A stretch of 64,000 bases of DNA from NCBI GenBank assembly GCA_002368155.1, contig AP018180.1, forward strand, positions 4,657,014 through 4,721,013, read 5' to 3'. The notes under the pieces are model-generated. The model was not told the origin of the DNA and searched no databases. It worked only from the letters and a program-made list of their open reading frames with translations. The translations under genes and the position numbers were made by a program. The DNA is from Nostoc carneum NIES-2107 (lineage in GTDB: Bacteria > Cyanobacteriota > Cyanobacteriia > Cyanobacteriales > Nostocaceae). Every line of letters begins with the position of its first letter. Positions within the stretch are counted from its first letter, which is position 1. This document shows, in pieces, positions 5,883 through 45,072 of the stretch.

Positions 5883-8003
5883 CTAAACAACTTGAAAATT
5901 AAAGCTGAGAGTTGCCCAATTGTTTACATCTAATACATAAGAGTCAGCAGCAGTAGCGTTAATTTCTGTTTTCATAGGACTAGCATTATGTAAATCTTGT
6001 AGTAAGGCTTGGGCAACTTCTAAGGGATTTAATAATGGGCCGATGGGTTGTTGATCTGTTGTCTGATTTTTAGCGGTTTCCAAAGTAGTTAGGGTTTCAT
6101 TGAAGGGACTGGTACTAAAAATTAGTTGATGTTCGCATTCATAAGCTGGGCCGGGAATTACCCATTCAGCCGCCGCAGCGCTTTGTGGTAAGGTGAATGT
6201 TTCACCTGGAGCTATAACTAATTGTTTCACCAAGGGTTTTAAAGGGGAACTGTTGGGTTCTGAGGAAGTTTGCCAGGGATAAAATGCGATCGCACTTCTG
6301 TTATTCTTTAATCCCAGTAAGATTAAATATACGGCGCGATCGCCTAAATTTTGTAAGCGATATTGCAATTTACTACCAATGGGTACAATCCTAGTGCTGG
6401 GTGATTTGTTGGTGGTAGTTTCATTACCTAGAGTCCGCATGGTTTCTCGTTGCATAACTACACGGGGCGCTAAAGTATTAATAATCTCCAGGCTGGCTTT
6501 GATGGCTAACCGGGAAGAACCCTCATTTTCCGTAAGTCGCCATAATTTAGCAGCTAACAAGGTGGGGAATTTCGGTGCTACCCTTTGCACTGCGATTTTT
6601 ACCGCTTCTCCGGGTTCGCCAGCAATGTTAGGTAGAGCTTCGCCACTAAGAGAAAATAAACTGTAGCGTGTAGGTGTTGGCGACAGTTTGCCAAATAGAT
6701 AATCTGCTGGTTGTTCTCCCGCCACGACAGCCGAGACATGGGCAATGGAAGCAAAGGCGCTAGTAGCATCTACGCGTTCAATTCTTTCTAGTGCTGTATC
6801 TAAAGCTACAATTAAACCGATATTGCGGGGTAAAACGCGCACAGTTTCTTGTACCAGTTGCCCTACTTGTAAAGGATTAGTAGGATTAGCAGTCGAGAGT
6901 TGTGCTTTGGCTGTTAACCCAGCACGCGATCGCAATATTAGCAGTTCTCCGGTAACTAAGCTAAATCGGGAGTTAATACTGTAGTTTTCCAATACTTGGG
7001 GTGGTAATCCCGCTAACCATAGACTCACGGTTTTGCCATCTTCTTCTATGGCCGTAATTGCACCTTCACCCCCAACTAAGATATCAGGAGCAAAATTATC
7101 CGCAATTAAAGCCGCTTGGGGATTTTTCTTACTACTCACTAAAGCTGGCTGTTGCTTGCTACCCAGCTTACGCATTGCAGTTTCTACTTGGGAGAGGCTG
7201 ACTTGAATTGTCTTAGTCGGTGTCACTTCCCATAAATATTGCGTTAAGGCGTAGGTAAATAACCCCGCGCTAAAACCTGATAGCAAAACTTCCCGCGCTG
7301 CTTGCTGGGAATCTCCTGTGGCGGACAATAGCAACGGTGGGGTAACTTCTCCCTTAATGAGAGAATTTTGCGTTTTTAGTTGTTTAAGAAATTCCAGTTC
7401 TGCAGTTGCTAGCTGACTATCTACTTCGGGACGGGAACGCACTCTTAAGCCTGGTAACCCAGCACTATTTGGCCCATAGTAGCTAGTATCTAATACTGCA
7501 GTGACCCGATCTGTAGAAAGCGATCGCAACAATAATAATAAAGTTTCTTCAAATAAATAATTGCTATTTTGACTATTTTGTGTATTAACTGCGATGAGAG
7601 CATTTTGCACCTGATCGGCTTCTAGCTTGATGCGAGTACCATAGCCGCTAAAGTGAAATACCACAACATCACCTGTTCTCGCTTGCTTACCCAGATGTTC
7701 TAAAAAAGCCGCTTCAATGAATTCTCGGTTAGCTTGTTCCTCTGTTAACGTGAGGATATTGGCTGCAGGGAAGCCAAAGCGATGCATCAGCAGTTCTTTT
7801 TGCAGTTCAACATCAGTTAAACACCCACTCAGAGCAGGATTTTGGGAGTATTGATTAATGCCAACTAACAACGCCAACTTACGCACACTAGGTTGCGCTA
7901 ACGCTTGGTAATAGCGATTTCCCCAGTTCAACCACTCAGCTTCAGTTATACCCAAAACTGCGAGAGTTGAACCAATCCGTTGTAAAAAAGTCCGACGCTT
8001 CAT
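5883..8003 (-). CDS. Tat-exported caspase-fold protein, Tyr-Ser (inactive-type) orthocaspase
   Basis: A 706-residue peptidase C14-like protein. The N-terminus (KRRTFLQ followed by a hydrophobic stretch) looks like a twin-arginine export signal. The caspase-fold domain spans about residues 40-300 (LALLVGINQY strand). Where active family members have SGHG with catalytic His, this protein has FHFSGYG (Tyr about 121). Where they have D-x-C-H-S-G with catalytic Cys, it has LDTSYYG (Ser about 174). Both dyad residues are therefore replaced, the known YS pseudo-variant of cyanobacterial orthocaspases. About 400 residues of unassigned sequence follow and may be a binding or surface domain. It is probably non-proteolytic. 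Confidence 0.85.
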   Translation of the reverse strand: MKRRTFLQRIGSTLAVLGITEAEWLNWGNRYYQALAQPSVRKLALLVGINQYSQNPALSGCLTDVELQKELLMHRFGFPAANILTLTEEQANREFIEAAFLEHLGKQARTGDVVVFHFSGYGTRIKLEADQVQNALIAVNTQNSQNSNYLFEETLLLLLRSLSTDRVTAVLDTSYYGPNSAGLPGLRVRSRPEVDSQLATAELEFLKQLKTQNSLIKGEVTPPLLLSATGDSQQAAREVLLSGFSAGLFTYALTQYLWEVTPTKTIQVSLSQVETAMRKLGSKQQPALVSSKKNPQAALIADNFAPDILVGGEGAITAIEEDGKTVSLWLAGLPPQVLENYSINSRFSLVTGELLILRSRAGLTAKAQLSTANPTNPLQVGQLVQETVRVLPRNIGLIVALDTALERIERVDATSAFASIAHVSAVVAGEQPADYLFGKLSPTPTRYSLFSLSGEALPNIAGEPGEAVKIAVQRVAPKFPTLLAAKLWRLTENEGSSRLAIKASLEIINTLAPRVVMQRETMRTLGNETTTNKSPSTRIVPIGSKLQYRLQNLGDRAVYLILLGLKNNRSAIAFYPWQTSSEPNSSPLKPLVKQLVIAPGETFTLPQSAAAAEWVIPGPAYECEHQLIFSTSPFNETLTTLETAKNQTTDQQPIGPLLNPLEVAQALLQDLHNASPMKTEINATAADSYVLDVNNWATLSFNFQVV

Positions 8004-23637: not shown

Positions 23638-23766
23638 TTTGGTGTTGAGTTTAAGGATAGCGCATTAAGCGTGCAGGGGGGCAGGGGAGCCAGCGCCGTG
23701 GGCGGGTTTCCCGACTTGAGGCGACTGGCGTGGCAGGGAGCAAGGGAGAGAAAGATTATCCTTGAT

Positions 23767-24012
23767 TGTATCGGGATACATTGTTAATGCATGGGTTTAC
23801 ATTGGCAATGTATCGGGATGCATTGTTAATGTATGGGTTTACATTGGCAATGTATCGGGTCACATTGTTAATGTATAGGGTTACATTGGCAATGCATCGG
23901 GTCGCATTGTTAATGTATGGGGTTACATTGGCAATGCATCGGGTCGCATTGTTAATGTATGGGGTTACATTGGCAATGCATCGGGTCGCATTGTTAATGC
24001 GTGGGCTGGCAA
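23767..24012. repeat. Tandem array, 42-bp unit made of two 21-bp halves
   Basis: Five full 42-bp copies start at 23767, 23809, 23851, 23893 and 23935, then a shortened copy at 23977-24012. Copies four and five are identical. Each copy splits into two related 21-mers (TGYATSGGK...CATTGKYAA). Unit junctions create small palindromes such as CATTGGCAATG. There are no spacers, so it is not a CRISPR array. Confidence 0.9.
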
Positions 24013-24079
24013 AGATAATTCATGAGTGCGATCGCCTAAAATTTTGTTATGGGAAAATCCTCTGGCAAGTCGTAAGTTA

Positions 24080-24332
24080 GAGACCATTTATAAAGTAAAT
24101 CTTAAGCAGGGGAGTCACTGCGTTGCGCGGGTTCCCCGCGTTGTAGCAAGTGGCGTTGTGTTACGGCTATGTAAAGAATTTGGGGCTTAGTGACAATTAA
24201 ATTTAGCCGTAACGCACCGCCGCATCGATGGTGCGTTAGGCGCTAAAATAATGCTTCTGCGACAAATCATATTGGAAATCAGCGCCTAACACACCCTACA
24301 TTAATTTTATTTTTACTTTATAAATAACCTCT
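24080..24332. repeat. MITE-like element with terminal inverted repeats
   Basis: About 253 bases. The left end GAGACCATTTATAAAGTAAA is mirrored by the right end, which read in reverse is GAGGTTATTTATAAAGTAAA. Inside is a nested inverted repeat (GGTGCGTTAGGCGC, with a near-complement at about 24279-24297). It has no ORF. A divergent full copy is at 16361-16643 and an inner fragment at 10833-10912. Confidence 0.7.
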
Positions 24333-34729: not shown

Positions 34730-35551
34730 TTATTCATCCGTATTTTTAGCGATCGCTACTGCCAGTTGTTCATAACGGCGTGGATCACCTTCAGCAAAAA
34801 CTAACCGCTCTTGCCCTTTGCGTCCATAAAGCTCTTCCATAATCTTCTGCCAGTCCATAGAAGACAAGGGGGAAGGGCGATTGTCTATATGTTGGGTTTG
34901 AGTGGTAGCTGTTGCTGTCTGCAGTTCTTGCTGTGCCATTAAGACACGGGCGCGTACTGGCCAACTCTCATTTTTAGCAGCAATTTGCTCAAAATGTGAC
35001 AGAATTTGTGATCGCCAATCTGGATGACTCACAGCAATTGCGTTGGCAAGAAACTGTAAGCCAACGATGGCTGAATAGCGTACCACCCACTCTTCATCTT
35101 CTTGAGCTACAAATAGCAAGGCTTCCATTGCTTCCGCTTGGGCAATTTCTAGCAGATCTTCTGGGAACCAATGCCATTTCATCATTCCTAATCCCTTTGC
35201 TGCTGCACGCCGAACACTTAGGGCAAAGTCAGCAGTGGCTGCGCCTAACAAGGTGACTAATCCTCGAGGATCGCCAATTCCTGCTAGGGTGCGGATTGCC
35301 CAAGACCTGGCTGTGTAGTTATGCATATCGAGCAGTTCCAACAGAGATGGAACTGCGGGTTCGCCAATTTGGATTAACCCATCGACAGCTGCAACTGCTG
35401 CACCTGGATTGTTATAGCTCAAAGCAGCAATTAGGGTAGGAATAGCTCCTTCTAAACGGGCTGCTGCTAGGTTTTTGACAGCTTCTTGTAAAAGGATAGA
35501 AGAATTTGCTTCTTCTACTGCACGAATTAGACTATTGAGGGAATCAGGCAT
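34730..35551 (-). CDS. cpcF: Phycocyanobilin lyase subunit CpcF
   Basis: A 273-residue HEAT-repeat protein (repeats such as PSLLELLDMHNYTARSWAIR and RRAAAKGLGMMKW). It forms the CpcE/CpcF heterodimer that attaches phycocyanobilin to Cys84 of the phycocyanin alpha chain. It lies 51 bases after cpcE on the same strand, and a terminator follows it. It probably also serves the second CpcA, since cpc2 has no lyase genes of its own. Confidence 0.92.
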   Translation of the reverse strand: MPDSLNSLIRAVEEANSSILLQEAVKNLAAARLEGAIPTLIAALSYNNPGAAVAAVDGLIQIGEPAVPSLLELLDMHNYTARSWAIRTLAGIGDPRGLVTLLGAATADFALSVRRAAAKGLGMMKWHWFPEDLLEIAQAEAMEALLFVAQEDEEWVVRYSAIVGLQFLANAIAVSHPDWRSQILSHFEQIAAKNESWPVRARVLMAQQELQTATATTQTQHIDNRPSPLSSMDWQKIMEELYGRKGQERLVFAEGDPRRYEQLAVAIAKNTDE

Positions 35552-35602
35552 GGGGAAGAAGAGAAGCGATAAGTTCTACCTTTTACATTTTCGCTCTTTC
35601 TG

Positions 35603-36433
35603 CTACAGTAACGCATCCATTAGTTGCATCACTTTAATTGCACCAGCGGATAAATCTTCTGGTTTTGTCGGTTGGAATTGCTTTTCCAGCAAACCTTTGA
35701 GAGATATTAACTTCAAGCTGTTTTCTGCTAGGGTATCAGCGATCGCTTCTGCTGCTGGTAAATAGCCAATCGCCCCTAAATCTGAAAGTACTGCCCGACG
35801 TAGTTGCAAATCATCCTGAGCAAGTGCCTGTACTAGGCGCTCGGCATACTGATTGTAACCTGCAGTTGATTCTGAGGTGAGTTGATACATCGCCCTGGCT
35901 GCGGAATACTGAATCCGAGGCACGGGATGATCTAAAAATTCTTGAATAATGGAAATTGCATCGCTTGCCCCCAAGGTTCCCAATGCCTCTATAATGGCAT
36001 CGAAGGGTTGGGCTAGTTGGGGTGGTTCTGGTGCTGGTAGGGTTCCTGGAACTTGATCATTGAGTAATTCGATTAGCCTAGAAATGCTGGATGAGTCGCC
36101 TAACATTTCCAGAGATTGGGCTGCAGCTTCACGCACATAAAAATCAGAACATTCCAGCGCTTTAATTAATGCGGGAACGGCTCGCTTTTCTCCTAATTTT
36201 CCTAATGCTCTGGCTGCATTGCGCCGCAGGGGATAGCCACCAACATTAGTGCGATCGTCTTCGTCTTCTAATGCTTGAATCAACACATCAATGGCTTCTG
36301 GAGCATCAACTCGAAACCGCCCTAACCACCAAGCCGCATACACGCGCAATCCTAAATCTTCACCTTGGAGATTAGCGATCGCCTGTTCTACAGTTAATTG
36401 GTTATCGTCCTGGATATTAGCTGCGTTTTCCAC
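35603..36433 (-). CDS. cpcE: Phycocyanobilin lyase subunit CpcE
   Basis: A 276-residue HEAT-repeat protein. The N-terminus LTVEQAIANLQGEDLGLRVY and the repeat AAWWLGRFRVDAPEAIDVLI are typical of CpcE. It is the lyase partner of CpcF for the alpha-84 bilin. A strong hairpin between cpcA1 and cpcE (36483-36540) should let only part of the transcripts continue, which fits the small amount of lyase needed relative to phycocyanin. Confidence 0.93.
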   Translation of the reverse strand: MENAANIQDDNQLTVEQAIANLQGEDLGLRVYAAWWLGRFRVDAPEAIDVLIQALEDEDDRTNVGGYPLRRNAARALGKLGEKRAVPALIKALECSDFYVREAAAQSLEMLGDSSSISRLIELLNDQVPGTLPAPEPPQLAQPFDAIIEALGTLGASDAISIIQEFLDHPVPRIQYSAARAMYQLTSESTAGYNQYAERLVQALAQDDLQLRRAVLSDLGAIGYLPAAEAIADTLAENSLKLISLKGLLEKQFQPTKPEDLSAGAIKVMQLMDALL

Positions 36434-36482
36434 TTTCTGTTCCTGTTCTCTATGCCCTCTGACAAATGCCTATACATGACAA

Positions 36483-36540
36483 TGCCCGGAGAGGTAAACA
36501 ATCACTAACTTCTGTCAGTCATTGTATACCCCTCCGGGCA
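36483..36540 (-). terminator. Intercistronic hairpin between cpcA1 and cpcE
   Basis: The arms TGCCCGGAGGGGTATACAAT (minus strand) and ATTGTTTACCTCTCCGGGCA pair over about 20 bp with few mismatches around a short loop. There is no T run. It is probably a partial terminator or RNA-stabilising 3' end for the abundant cpcBA message. Confidence 0.75.
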
Positions 36541-36552
36541 ACAACATCTTAA

Positions 36553-37041
36553 CTAGCTTAATGCGTTGATAGCGTAGTCGATGTAGGAGTTTGCTTCAAC
36601 AGCAGGGTCGCCACTTAAACCGTGGTTAGCTTTGATGTATTTCAAAGCTTCAACATACCAGCTGGGAGATAGATCAAATGTGCGGTTGATTTCAGCGATA
36701 CCACCAATTAGGTAGTCATCCAATGGGCCTGTACCACCAACAACTAGGCAGTAGGTAACCATCCGCAAGTAGTAGCCGATGTCACGAACGCACTTGTCTT
36801 TGCCGGTTTGAGTAGAAGCAAAGTTAGGGCCGTTTTGGCTGGTGGTGTAGGGGAATTTGCTGTAAACAGCATTAGCAGCACCAGAAGCTAAGCTAGAAGC
36901 CTTTTCGGTTAATGCTTTTGCAGCAGCTAAGCTAGCAGAAGCTTGACGGAAACGACCAAATGCGGTTTGGATTTCGGTGGAGCTCAGGAAGCGTCCTTGG
37001 GAATCAGCAGCAGCTACTGCTTCGGTCAAAGGGGTTTTCAT
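36553..37041 (-). CDS. cpcA1: Phycocyanin alpha subunit, set 1
   Basis: A 162-residue phycobiliprotein with bilin-binding Cys84 in [10 protein letters not shown]. It pairs with CpcB1 to form phycocyanin hexamers in phycobilisome rods. The frame extends six codons upstream (37059), but [10 protein letters not shown] is the invariant family start, with GGGAGAA about 8 bases before it. Differences from CpcA2 lie mainly at residues 40-80 (for example [14 protein letters not shown] here versus [14 protein letters not shown]). Confidence 0.95.
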
Positions 37042-37159
37042 GATCAGATTTTCTCCCAATAATCTTTTTTGATGAAATAGCTTTTAGCAATCGTTTCAGT
37101 TATCTAAATGTCTGAAACCGCTCAAAAAATCGATTCCAAAAAATCGATGATATAGCTGA

Positions 37160-37678
37160 CTAAGCAACAGCAGAAGCAGCCTTATCGAAGTAGCTTGCAA
37201 CTTCAGCCATTAAGCTGGCGCAATCGCCTCTGGTAATACCATTGGTGTCGCCTGCGATCGCTAGAGCAGCATCTTTCATCTTTTGAACGCCAACTGCTAC
37301 GGAAGAACCGGGAGTTCCTAGCGCCAAGTAGGTTTCTTTTAAACCGTTGAGGCAGCGATCGTCTAAAACGCTTGCATCACCTGCGAAGATTGCATAGGTA
37401 ACGTAGCGTAAGATGATTTCCATGTCACGCAAGCAAGCAGCCATACGACGGCTGGTGTAAGCGTTACCACCAGGAGCAATCAACTGAGGCTGTTCTGCAA
37501 ATAGAGAACGAGCTGCATTTGCCACAATTGTGGAGGAGTTGCCGGTAATACGGTTAACAACGTCCATGCGCTTGTTGCCATCAGCAACTAAAGCACTGAG
37601 AGCATCTATTTGAGAACCACTCAGGTATTCACCTCGTGCGTCAGCTTGGGAGACTACTTTTGCAAATGCGTCTAACAT
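37160..37678 (-). CDS. cpcB1: Phycocyanin beta subunit, set 1
   Basis: A 172-residue phycobiliprotein with bilin cysteines 82 (AACLRDME) and 153 (GDCASLM) and Asn72, the site normally methylated. First gene of cpcB1A1EF, 118 bases before cpcA1. No linker genes follow, and there is no L box upstream, as expected for a constitutive phycocyanin set. Confidence 0.95.
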
Positions 37679-38905: not shown

Positions 38906-39163
38906 TCAGTTTTCCGATGCATCTTCAGTTGAATTTTCACCTGCAGGACGGATGTTAACAATTTTGCCGCCTAAGCGGGTGATGCGACGCATCTCTTCAT
39001 TCATCCGGCTGTAAGGGACTTGAATCTCAATCGTGCTGCTATTGCGAATCTGATAACGATTGTTATCAGTTTGCTCGTTCTGGCGCAATCCTTCTACTTC
39101 GTAAACAAAGACGCGATTGTCTGAACCGGAACTAGATCTTCTGGTCAATACAGAACCTAACAT
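38906..39163 (-). CDS. cpcD2: Small rod-capping linker CpcD, set 2
   Basis: An 85-residue CpcD-domain protein (VFVYEVEGLRQ, IQVPYSRMNEEMRRITRLGG, KIVNIRP). It caps the outer end of phycocyanin rods. Last gene of cpcB2A2H2I2D2, 14 bases after cpcI2, followed by a strong terminator. Confidence 0.92.
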   Translation of the reverse strand: MLGSVLTRRSSSGSDNRVFVYEVEGLRQNEQTDNNRYQIRNSSTIEIQVPYSRMNEEMRRITRLGGKIVNIRPAGENSTEDASEN

Positions 39164-40097: not shown

Positions 40098-40907
40098 TTA
40101 GGCAGGAGAAATATTAACTACGCGACTACCTCGCTGATTCAGTCTTTGCAGAGTTGGTGATAGTTGGTCGTAACTGACCAAATACTCTTTCATACTACGT
40201 CTGATTTGGGTAGTACGCCCTCTATCTGCTTGGATGACACGTACTCGGTAAAGCTGTCCGCGATCGCCTCCGACTACACCAGTCAGTCCCTTACCAAAGT
40301 TAGGAGTCTGAATACTGCTAGCCAGATTCATTGCTAGATCTTGGGTTAACCAAGCAGACTTGTTTTTACCTTGGGAGCGATCACTGTTAGCATATCCCCG
40401 ATAAATCTGAAACATCCGGTTGAAGCCTACTGTCTTTTGTCCCGGTTGAGTTTCAAATCCCCGATAATGAGGCACAATCGCTTCGCCAAAGCTTTCTTGA
40501 TATTCGGCTGAATCAATATATGAATTGATTTCTGCCTCGTATCCTTTCTCTGTATAAAGGTTGACGTGGTAAGAAATCTCTGATTCGTCGTAGGGCGCAC
40601 GACCAAGCAGATGCTTGTAGTTCAGTTCGATAAAGCGGACTTGAGGCGTAGAGTAAAAGAACTTTTGGCGATATAGTTCAGATTGTGCTAATAACCGCAC
40701 AAAATCTCTCACGCTAATGTTACCCTGATGCAATAGCGATTCTGCACTGGTGAGGCGTTCGCTTTGCATCACGTGGTCATTACCAAACACTTGACGATAA
40801 GCAGCATGAATTACTGCTGGTACGTCACTACTAGCTCTCAATTCTGTGGGAGCTGTGCTAGCAAACGGTTCAAATCCTAGCTGACGGGCCGCCGTGGAAC
40901 TAGTCAT
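40098..40907 (-). CDS. cpcH2: Phycocyanin rod linker, set 2 (first)
   Basis: A 269-residue linker with the same two domains as CpcI2: PBS linker about residues 20-150 ([35 protein letters not shown]) and CpcD-like about 213-266 ([21 protein letters not shown]). It follows cpcA2 across a stable hairpin (40943-41007), which probably keeps linker output below that of the apoproteins. Confidence 0.9.
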
Positions 40908-41577: not shown

Positions 41578-42096
41578 CTAGCCAACTGCAGCAGCAGCGC
41601 GATCGAAGTAGCTACCCAATTCAGCCATTAAGGAGCTACAGTCACCACGGGTAACACCGCTGGGGTCGTTAGCAATAGCGATCGCAGCTTCTTTCATCTT
41701 TTGAACGCCAGTAGATACGGAAGCGCCAGGAACACCTAATGCTTGATATGTTTCGCGAAGACCGTTCAAGCAGCGATCGTCTAAAACGCTAGCATCACCT
41801 GCAAATACTGCGTAGGTTACATAGCGTAAGATGATTTCCATGTCGCGTAAGCAAGCTGCCATACGACGGTTGGTGTAAGCATTACCACCAGGTGCAATCA
41901 ACTGGGGTTGCTCTTCAAATAAAGCGCGAGCTGCATTGGCAACGATTGTGGAGGCATTGCCGGTAATGCGGTTAACAACATCCATGCGCTTAGAACCAGC
42001 AGCAACCATATCTTTCAATGCATCGATTTCTGCATCGCTAATGTATGCGCCTCTAGTATCAGCCTGGGAAACTACTTTGGTAAAAGCGTCAAGCAT
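41578..42096 (-). CDS. cpcB2: Phycocyanin beta subunit, set 2 (red-light type)
   Basis: A 172-residue phycobiliprotein with Cys82 (AACLRDME), Cys153 (GDCSSLM) and Asn72. First gene of a five-gene operon cpcB2A2H2I2D2, the arrangement of the red-light-inducible phycocyanin operon of Fremyella diplosiphon. A perfect L box lies 376 bases upstream on the coding strand, implying RcaC control. Confidence 0.94.
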
Positions 42097-42472
42097 TCCA
42101 GCATCTCCTAAAAATATTACTATGCTGTGGATTCAAACTAGGTTCAAAATCCGATCCTTGATGTGGATGAGCATATTTACTGACTTTTTAGATGTTGCCG
42201 TTATGAGCAACCAGCACAATAGTCGCCAGGAAATTTCATTCGCTTGGCAATCGGGGTAAATTTACCCCTAATTCTGTTAGCTAGTTTTCAGTGACTAACG
42301 GTACAGCTATACATCAATACTGCTATTATCCACAACAACTAATTTCTTAAAGGCCCACAAGCCTAGATTAATGAAATAGCTGTTCATCAATTTTTCAGAT
42401 ACCGAACTTTCTCTATCGAGGGCAGAGCGTTCAGCGGTTTTTTGAACCTGAAATTGATTAAAGCAATCCGTT

Positions 42473-42906: not shown

Positions 42907-43650
42907 TTAAGCTACATAGTCAAAAAGCATAGTTGTCATGTAGCGATCTGCCCATTCTTTACCGAAAGACTTTTCCAGAACGCGCCGGGTTTTGTCATTT
43001 TGCTGCTGCTTTGTACAGTAATTGCGTTGTCCTGCCAAAACTCTAGAGATATCAAGATTGGATGTTAAAGGTGTCTCTGATGCAGCAATCTGACAATGAA
43101 TGGTTAAATATTCGCGAACGCGGTTGTGAAACTTTTCTTCTTCTTGAGCATTTTCTGGGCGCACAAACAGGCAAAATTGCGAGAAAATATCGCCCCAAGG
43201 CGGTAAAGCCCGTGGTTCAGAAAACTCAATTTCCGGTAAAGCAGACAAATGCTGATAATAGCGTGACGGTAGACTGCGATCGCTACTGATGGGAGACAAA
43301 TCTGCGATCGCTGCACTAATCAACCCACCTTTCCCGCCTACCAAATCTGTACCAAACATGGGAATCGGGTATTCAGGATTGGGGAACATCACACAGTGCA
43401 GAATATCTAAACCATTGCCAACCTGCGCCAATTCTAGATGCAGTTTGCGAAATTGCGGAGCTTGGTAGCAATGATTTTCAATGATCAGCCGTTCGCCTTC
43501 CAAATGTCCCTCGACATAGCCTAAACCTTCTGGGACAGAGTAAGGGGAGATATCCAGGTATTTTTGCCAAATTTCTTCAATCGAATCCGCCAACCTGTGG
43601 ATTAGGGGATGCTGGCGATTTCTCAACGACGCTTCCATAGACTTCAACAT
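42907..43650 (-). CDS. pcyA: Phycocyanobilin:ferredoxin oxidoreductase
   Basis: A 247-residue bilin reductase that turns biliverdin into phycocyanobilin, the chromophore of phycocyanin and phytochromes. Key residues by family alignment: Glu in LHLEL (about 73), His in DILHCVMFPNP (about 85) and Asp in MFGTDLVGGKGG (about 102). An L box 45 bases before the start ties it to the cpc2 operon next door. GAGAAG just before ATG 43650 supports that start; a second ATG lies at 43638. Confidence 0.95.
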   Translation of the reverse strand: MLKSMEASLRNRQHPLIHRLADSIEEIWQKYLDISPYSVPEGLGYVEGHLEGERLIIENHCYQAPQFRKLHLELAQVGNGLDILHCVMFPNPEYPIPMFGTDLVGGKGGLISAAIADLSPISSDRSLPSRYYQHLSALPEIEFSEPRALPPWGDIFSQFCLFVRPENAQEEEKFHNRVREYLTIHCQIAASETPLTSNLDISRVLAGQRNYCTKQQQNDKTRRVLEKSFGKEWADRYMTTMLFDYVA

Positions 43651-43695
43651 ACGCTTCTCTTTGAGTATAGGATTAACCTACCTTGGCGTATAGCC

Positions 43696-43713
43696 TGTGC
43701 AATAGCTGTGCAA
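43696..43713 (-). promoter_or_regulatory. L box (RcaC site) of pcyA
   Basis: On the minus strand TTGCACA-GCTA-TTGCACA, a perfect consensus match. Downstream a TATACT (43669-43664) could be a -10 box. It sits much closer to its gene than the cpc2 box does, so RcaC would act near the -35 position here. Confidence 0.85.
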
Positions 43714-43815: not shown

Positions 43816-44124
43816 TTACTCGGTTTCCAGATTTCTTTGTTTCCAATAATTTGGTTTGCGCTTACTATGTGCGATCGCAATTACCCAAATCACTGCTTCC
43901 AACTCTGTATAAAAAATTATATAGGGAAAACGTTGAATAGTATAACGACGGATTCCTGCAATTTTGTGTGGGGTTCCTAAATTAGGATTTTGCTGAATTT
44001 TCAGAATAACTTTTTCCACTTCAGATAGTAAATCTAGTCCCAAGCCTATTTTTTGAGCTTCATAGTAAGCTATGGCAGCATCAAGCTCTTTTCTAGCTTC
44101 TGTGTGGATAACAATAAACTTCAC
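43816..44124 (-). CDS. RelE/ParE-type toxin
   Basis: A 102-residue protein of the RelE/ParE fold (IVIHTEARKELDAAIAYYEA at the start, IRRYTIQRFPYIIFYT and VIAIAHSKRKPNYW at the end). Toxins of this fold cut mRNA on the ribosome or poison gyrase; which applies is unclear. It overlaps the antitoxin gene by 4 bases (ATGA), a typical toxin-antitoxin arrangement. Confidence 0.85.
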   Translation of the reverse strand: MKFIVIHTEARKELDAAIAYYEAQKIGLGLDLLSEVEKVILKIQQNPNLGTPHKIAGIRRYTIQRFPYIIFYTELEAVIWVIAIAHSKRKPNYWKQRNLETE

Positions 44125-44351
44125 GAATACTTTTCTCGTAATTCAGAAAATACTTGAGATGATGGTTCTCCAATAGCTGTTTTGCAATTAATATCTTGCA
44201 ACCTTTGGTTTAATTCTGTATCCCAAGCAGTTTCCAGATTATCATCTATCTCTTCATCTAGAGAATGAATTAAAAAGTAGGCAATTTCAGCACGTTCTTT
44301 TGCAGAAAGTTGAGAAAGTTCGAGTTTAAGTTTTTCTGCAGTTTCACTCAT
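44121..44351 (-). CDS. Antitoxin of the addiction-module component family
   Basis: A 76-residue acidic protein (SETAEKLKLELSQLSAKERA, then EIAYFLIHSLDEE). This matches the small addiction-module antitoxins that precede ParE-like toxins. The frame opens at 44369, but the second Met (44351) gives the usual N-terminus. Translation is coupled to the toxin by the 4-base overlap. Confidence 0.8.
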   Translation of the reverse strand: MSETAEKLKLELSQLSAKERAEIAYFLIHSLDEEIDDNLETAWDTELNQRLQDINCKTAIGEPSSQVFSELREKYS

Positions 44352-44408
44352 ACTTTGGAGTCTTCCCAAGGATTATAAAATTGGCTCAATTATCTGATCG
44401 TAGCTCCT

Positions 44409-44624: not shown

Positions 44625-44758
44625 TGTTAAGCAAGGGTGTTTATTGGTTGATATCCATTTTAAGAATAACCTGTACAAGCATAATTTCGCTTGGCTTGTA
44701 ATGATCTGAAAGTGCGATTCCTATATCTGGCTACGCCTACGCAAAAGCTGTTTTCGAT

Positions 44759-44989
44759 ACTACAATTGCTGTTTCTGACACTACAATTGCTGTTTTTTAT
44801 ACTACAATTGCTGTTTCTGACACTACAATTGCTGTTTTTTATACTACAATTGCTATTTCTGACACTACAATTGCTGTTTTTTATACTACAATTGCTGTTT
44901 TTGCGATCGCAAAAGCTATATTTGATACTACAATTGCTATTTTTGAGACTACATTTGCCGTTTTTTATACTACAATTGCTATTTCGGGA
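44759..44989. repeat. Tandem array of eleven 21-bp units in an alternating 42-bp pattern
   Basis: Units ACTACAATTGCTG+TTTCTGAC and ACTACAATTGCTG+TTTTTTAT alternate from 44759. One unit in the 44885-44926 block has been replaced by TTTTGCGATCGCAAAAGC-type sequence containing a HIP1 site, yet keeps the length. Every unit has the palindrome CAATTG. The open frame across it encodes only a leucine/phenylalanine heptad and is rejected as a gene. Confidence 0.9.
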
Positions 44990-45072
44990 GTCGCCAAAAT
45001 AGCTTTTGAGGCAAGATTTGCTATTTTGGCGGTGTTAGGCAAAGAGCATAGGATGTCAATTCACAGTTAAAT

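Follow-up and report, generated by a model that had tools for sequence, protein, structure and literature searches.

Does the direct repeat that stands before the bilin reductase gene pcyA of Nostoc carneum NIES-2107 bring chromophore synthesis under the regulator of the inducible phycocyanin operon cpc2? We analysed a stretch of 64,000 nucleotides of this genome (the window) and suggest that the repeat is an RcaC site in the pcyA promoter, serving red-light activation together with cpc2, and that a reversed box at cpeC serves repression. We estimate the probability of this reading at about 0.92. The genes concerned follow each other on the minus strand in the order pcyA, box, cpcB2-cpcA2-two rod linkers-small linker, second cpcBA and two HEAT-repeat genes:

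43713-43696, minus strand: L box of pcyA, TTGCACAGCTATTGCACA (TTGCACA-GCTA-TTGCACA), 0 mismatches to TTGCACAN4TTGCACA
42907..43650, minus strand: pcyA, phycocyanobilin:ferredoxin oxidoreductase, 247 aa, single copy, PF05996
42473..42490, minus strand: L box of cpc2, TTGCACA-AAAT-TTGCACA, perfect, 376 nt before cpcB2
41578..42096, minus strand: cpcB2, phycocyanin beta of the inducible operon, PF00502
41020..41508, minus strand: cpcA2, phycocyanin alpha, named from its translation and position
40098..40907, minus strand: cpcH2, rod linker, PF00427 and PF01383
39178..40050, minus strand: cpcI2, rod linker, named by its resemblance to cpcH2 and its position
38906..39163, minus strand: cpcD2, small rod linker, named by position and length
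34730..37678, minus strand: second phycocyanin operon, cpcB-cpcA with two HEAT-repeat (cpcE/cpcF-like) genes, names from translations

The reductase is PcyA rather than PebA or PebB, with 59-97% identity to 80 related loci versus 23-28% to an adjacent reductase pair, which we read as pebA/pebB from domains, position and background knowledge. It is the sole match at E<=1e-60 in its genome, and this pair makes up the two other matches. The region before pcyA holds a ParE/antitoxin pair, short repeats, and chlH-like and por-like genes, the latter two named from their translations. The ParE-family toxin and the addiction-module antitoxin occupy 43816-44369 (minus strand), between pcyA and the chlH-like gene, and a short tandem repeat of actacaattgctgtttt-like units spans 44740-45000, in the interval from this pair to the chlH-like gene. 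A further ORF composed of repeats is found at 23766-24080.

The consensus TTGCACAN4TTGCACA is what we take to be the RcaC site. The perfect L box that the original prediction placed before pcyA is indeed there, its distance to the pcyA start codon (ATG, 43650) being 45 nt, and 57 nt to the next in-frame ATG (43638, MEASLR). Both the pcyA and the cpc2 boxes are oriented with the direction of their genes. Matches in the whole genome (9,359,223 bases, 4 contigs) number 2 without mismatch, 10 with one and 73 with two, whereas a third-order Markov model trained on 218 kb of the same genome leads one to expect 0.12, 4.8 and 92. The reversed pattern serves as a weak genome-wide control; the Markov expectation is preferred because that pattern holds CpG. 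Both perfect boxes of the 9.36-Mb genome fall in the window, one before pcyA and one before cpcB2, and two seen against 0.12 expected are not the work of chance. A chance match could be argued from the two-mismatch boxes, whose number is at chance level, but 0.0008 perfect matches are expected in 64 kb and the box is conserved in distant relatives, so that this explanation is already refuted and its probability practically nil; the prediction had also called such an accident very unlikely.

Since the counts lie near the Markov expectation, most imperfect boxes can be chance, and we rejected them as further members of the regulon with the exception of the box at cpeC. Among the ten one-mismatch sites, compared by eye with the ORF lists, only this one has a convincing gene behind it. 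The whole-genome match list holds no box with <=2 mismatches near rcaC (L148), near the pebAB-like pair and rcaE (L221), or upstream of the second cpcBA operon. A TTCCARAATNNTTGCACAGNNGTAACACA-like motif, part of the two-mismatch matches, recurs in the genome (L014/L015, L018/L019) and looks like a dispersed repeat. Some perfect boxes in other genomes of the order sit within unrelated ORFs and were excluded as evidence.

The regulators that such a box calls for are encoded elsewhere in the genome. A protein with two receivers, Trans_reg_C and Hpt domains, 651 aa long from an internal ATG, lies at L148:7112-9064, and we take it to be RcaC from its domain order, its length and its phyletic pattern. 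Its neighbours are a regulator and a linker with a C-terminal hydrophobic segment, which we presume, by resemblance, to be CcaR-like and CpcL-like. RcaE is encoded at L221:13969-16083. Over residues 136-323 it shares 185/188 positions with 8k9o (PDB, ‘histidine kinase’; E 5e-115), and it also matches PDB 7ckv ‘RcaE’ (E 4e-99). The solved domain comes from Fremyella, and so high an identity hints that the genome belongs to a near relation of F. diplosiphon. A receiver-only protein adjoins RcaE and is read as RcaF from its position; the pebA/pebB-like pair is found at L221 as well. Upstream of cpeC (L003) there is a one-mismatch box, reversed and 257 nt from the start codon (L150:9311-9328), and the same reversed arrangement with one mismatch recurs at seven more cpeC loci (L034, L035, L041, L046, L056, L281, L282). 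Judged by gene content and box positions, the boxes, RcaE, RcaC, the RcaF-like receiver and the reversed cpeC box make up the arrangement known from type III chromatic acclimation (CA3).

For the co-occurrence of box and RcaC in relatives we compared the best 80 of 101 pcyA loci, a sample hence biased toward the pcyA of the window. A box counted as present if any fetched pcyA copy had one with <=2 mismatches, on its own strand and no more than 150 nt away. An RcaC orthologue was scored at >=55% identity across some 340 residues or more, or as adjoining pieces; the screen scored 25 candidates per genome (20/20 in G014), and the RcaC+ set was assembled by hand. Among 66 genomes, with L035 and L037 left out of the counts, the box is present in 24/35 RcaC+ and in 1/31 RcaC- genomes (Fisher p 1.7e-8), and a perfect box in 9/35 and 0/31, respectively; the reversed pattern gives 0 and simulated upstream regions 0.3%. 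The sole boxed RcaC- genome (L060) likely retains a 39-codon rcaC relic, with 59% identity, 124-240 nt upstream of pcyA. This relic lies at about 7761-7877, the pcyA box there is degenerate, and no intact RcaC orthologue was found in that genome. The original prediction had named absence of the box in close relatives with CA3 as its refutation, and it passes this check: L031 and L032, the nearest relatives with a name (97%), have an identical box at an identical distance and a perfect cpc2 box. The nearest unnamed relative, L280, carries a pcyA box with one mismatch. The box, its orientation and spacing, its conservation and its co-occurrence with RcaC, as well as the RcaE, RcaC and RcaF-like genes, are direct observations on these genomes.

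Eleven of the 35 RcaC+ genomes show no box at <=2 mismatches at the fetched copies (L040, L043, L049/L087, L052, L057, L059, L064, L066, L069, L070/L083, L072). Among them, L052 has a box with 3 mismatches, and L059 has a decayed box with the second promoter element described below kept. One of the two pcyA copies of G016 lies at a contig end (L049, which begins at the contig start and counts as an unexamined copy), so that the unboxed score of this genome rests on the other copy (L087); the tally is the same. In L043 an unboxed pcyA follows a boxed cpc operon after a gap of ~1.8 kb. Elsewhere pcyA without its own box is found beside boxed cpc2 (L040, L059, L069, L072, L087) or beside boxed linker genes (L083), and since unboxed pcyA adjoins boxed cpc2 or linker genes in these six loci, control of pcyA by its own box is not obligatory. 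Where two pcyA copies were examinable (11 genomes), exactly one is boxed in 9, neither in 2 and both in none.

Several observations on more distant genomes stand beside these counts. In L099 and L106, counted as RcaC-, pcyA lies behind a boxed cpc operon and there is only a 43-46% RcaC-like protein. The Xenococcus-type loci L084, L099 and L106 have a box of this kind, with 2, 1 and 0 mismatches, lying behind pcyA, and only a 43-47% RcaC-like protein. In one cyanobacterial family (f20; L237-L250) a perfect box, mostly TTGCACAARAATTGCACA-like, precedes cpcB by 110-353 nt in 12/14 loci, L244 and L250 being the exceptions. RcaC orthologues of L169, L172-L176 and L178-L180, mostly Pseudanabaena, are shorter frames of 507-535 aa, with a strong match over about residues 1-376 and, in those read next to pcyA, a further matching piece, which gives the impression of a missing middle part.

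The genome of the window contains 27 Trans_reg_C matches, among them several multi-receiver RcaC-like paralogues, and one may ask whether another OmpR-class regulator uses the box. Box presence tracks the RcaC orthologue, however, and many RcaC- genomes possess RcaC-like paralogues of 37-47% identity, among the matches listed, yet have no box. Moreover, the introduction and Scheme 1 legend of PMC8256508 ascribe the binding to RcaC. We consider such a regulator very improbable.

The gene order in relatives was compared as well. With rcaC scored at >=50% identity, on the same strand and ending <600 nt upstream of pcyA, it lies directly upstream of pcyA in 21/80 loci; a box (<=2 mismatches) is present in 14 of these and absent in 7. 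Several genomes show the order rcaC-[box]-pcyA-[box]-cpc2, and the loci with rcaC directly before a boxed pcyA include L039, L046, L056, L058, L071, L073, L088 and L091. In L039 the box begins 3 nt after the rcaC stop codon. In Tolypothrix FACHB-123 (L037) cpcL-ccaR-rcaC-pcyA-cpc2 are kept together and pcyA has no box. In N. carneum rcaC stands apart from pcyA, ~0.78 Mb away at L148 beside the ccaR- and cpcL-like genes, as though it had moved away.

The promoter was compared by aligning 28 pcyA promoters on the box; L088, whose start was not located, was left out of this alignment and of the element counts. Behind the boxes the window holds three further features:

43680..43687, minus strand: second conserved element of the pcyA promoter, GCCAAGGT, consensus GYCANNGT, +9 to +16 behind the box
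43664..43669, minus strand: candidate -10 TATACT, 26 nt behind the pcyA box, less conserved
42456..42466, minus strand: conserved block behind the cpc2 box, TTGCTTTAATC

Columns +9, +11, +12, +15 and +16 are 92-100% identical, GYCANNGT is exact in 21/28 boxed pcyA promoters, and at least four of the five key columns agree in 27/28. Upstream of the box there is no conservation, with at most 60% identity per column in the same 28 promoters. At the same position behind cpc boxes GYCANNGT occurs in 0/26; cpc promoters carry instead TTG-CTTTAATC at +7 to +17, where ten of the eleven columns are 100% identical and the other 58% (24 cpc promoters, i.e. 27 minus three of Xenococcus type). A generic sigma-70 promoter scan reported no promoter at the pcyA box, nor the TATACT candidate; the same scan gave a single terminator-like site (42253-42268, plus strand). 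The GYCANNGT element is probably the -35 region or a contact of sigma or RcaC, and RcaC would then be placed just upstream of a weak -35 region at pcyA. Where transcription starts, and what the second element does, we infer.

The same alignment bears on the thought that the box is a relic of an ancestral rcaC-pcyA order, no longer used since rcaC moved. The 14 loci with rcaC directly upstream of a boxed pcyA speak for such an origin, as does the distance of rcaC in our genome, where the 2.85 kb before pcyA showed no remnant of rcaC. Against it stand the two arms of the box, perfect here and in two relatives, and the conservation of box and second element across promoters whose sequence upstream of the box is unconserved. 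We consider this idea very improbable, a little less likely than the use of the box by another regulator.

The history of pcyA itself was followed in a second sample, 80 genomes of the family of the window, which we read as Nostocaceae from the named relatives within it. This sample and that of the named relatives share genomes and species and their rows are related, so that the two are not independent. The pcyA matches form two identity groups relative to the gene of the window: type 2, 12 genes with 73-100% identity (our own included), and type 1 with 62-68%; G194 and G388 gave no pcyA match. A box (<=3 mismatches), 42-76 nt before the start, is present at 12/12 type-2 genes, which widens the observation made in the close relatives. 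Of the 73 type-1 pcyA places 67 were examined; 0/67 have a box at <=2 mismatches, and there is one 3-mismatch match, at another place.

The distribution of RcaC follows that of type 2. All 12 type-2 genomes have an RcaC orthologue, with 63-100% identity at full length in 11 and as two pieces in G384. Of the other 68 family genomes one has it, G373 (84%), with type-1 pcyA only and with no box found in the 5 kb around rcaC; in the remaining 67, RcaC-like matches (E 1e-120 or better), among those listed, reach at most 45%, and 26 genomes show none. The sole type-1 pcyA match of G373 (L343, L307) is reported with one internal TAA. In 5/12 type-2 genomes, our own included, the boxed pcyA is the only pcyA at E 1e-60, and both types are present in 7.

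A PcyA tree of 99 rows shows the same division. It is unrooted, 14 of the 67 type-1 genes were entered and L049 was labelled unboxed; a branch with support 100/99 splits 34 unboxed rows, the 14 type-1 genes among them, from 65 others, which include all 32 rows boxed at <=3 mismatches. The box label changes 10 times on this tree versus 27 times in shuffles. We lean to the view that cyanobacterial pcyA comprises two long-separated lineages, of which type 2 goes together with the colour-switch genes and includes all the boxed copies that we found, and that type 2 has replaced type 1 in some members of the family including N. carneum, so that here the whole supply of phycocyanobilin, the chromophore of RcaE included, would depend on a colour-controlled promoter with GYCANNGT.

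We propose the following course of events, in which RcaC binding and the response to light are taken by analogy from papers on other strains. In red light RcaE, via RcaF, would phosphorylate RcaC, a response regulator of the OmpR class. RcaC would then bind the direct repeat with its 11-bp period just upstream of the core promoter of pcyA and activate it, and would act likewise 1.2 kb downstream, at the box of cpc2. PcyA would supply phycocyanobilin for the newly made inducible phycocyanin, and at the reversed distal box upstream of cpeC the same RcaC would repress the phycoerythrin linker operon. The original prediction held that chromophore and apoprotein are probably switched together from adjacent units; the separate boxes before pcyA and cpc2 support it and, because each unit has its own, make it the natural reading.

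In green light, too, the cell depends on its sole pcyA, whose product serves allophycocyanin and RcaE itself; the gene must hence be expressed then as well, and its switch cannot be all-or-none. A variant of the main reading is that RcaC binds the box and only fine-tunes pcyA, with basal expression from an RcaC-independent promoter and a modest rise in red light. It draws on the single copy of pcyA, whose product is required in green light as well, and on the pcyA boxes being less often perfect, 8/23 distinct boxes versus 17/27 cpc promoters, whereas neither box of the window has a mismatch in either arm. We regard this variant as a serious possibility, its chances being a little below even.

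Direct repeats of the Pho box and of other OmpR-class regulators have 7-bp arms and an 11-bp period and are bound by a winged-helix response regulator. The L box is similar in its two 7-bp arms and 11-bp period; it differs in sequence and signal and seems to lie upstream of the -35 region rather than to replace it. The study of Alvey et al. from 2007 reportedly concerns pcyA in Fremyella. As in the RcaC L-box system of Fremyella diplosiphon, the box here stands before cpc2 and pcyA in the gene direction, is reversed and distal before the green-light operon, and RcaE and RcaC are in the genome; nothing differs in kind, although the box at our cpeC deviates at one position and the match list gives none (<=2 mismatches) close to the pebAB-like pair. 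Alvey et al. 2007 and Li et al. 2008, on the RcaC L box of F. diplosiphon, are cited in PMC5784247 and PMC8256508. For Synechococcus sp. PCC 7335 the introduction and the Scheme 1 legend of PMC8256508 state that phosphorylated RcaC activates pcyA and cpc2 through the L box, as is predicted here, and describe the arrangement found in type III chromatic acclimation; the repressed target named there is pebAB, whereas here the reversed box is at cpeC.

RcaC/L-box activation of pcyA with cpc2 is thus published biology in kind; the finding is correct and of a known type. The separate boxed pcyA lineage, the rcaC-pcyA-cpc2 order in several genomes, the sole-copy status and the second promoter element GYCANNGT may be new. 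In those portions of the open-licence literature that we consulted we found no description of the two pcyA lineages or of a second element behind the pcyA box.

Read from sequence alone, the CA3 regulon of N. carneum covers both chromophore and apoprotein synthesis. The link between the box and pcyA is kept as far as Leptolyngbya- and Pseudanabaena-type genomes and tracks RcaC. The second element offers a defined target for learning how RcaC activates, and the sole copy raises the question of how one colour-controlled pcyA is reconciled with the need for phycocyanobilin in green light, for allophycocyanin and RcaE.
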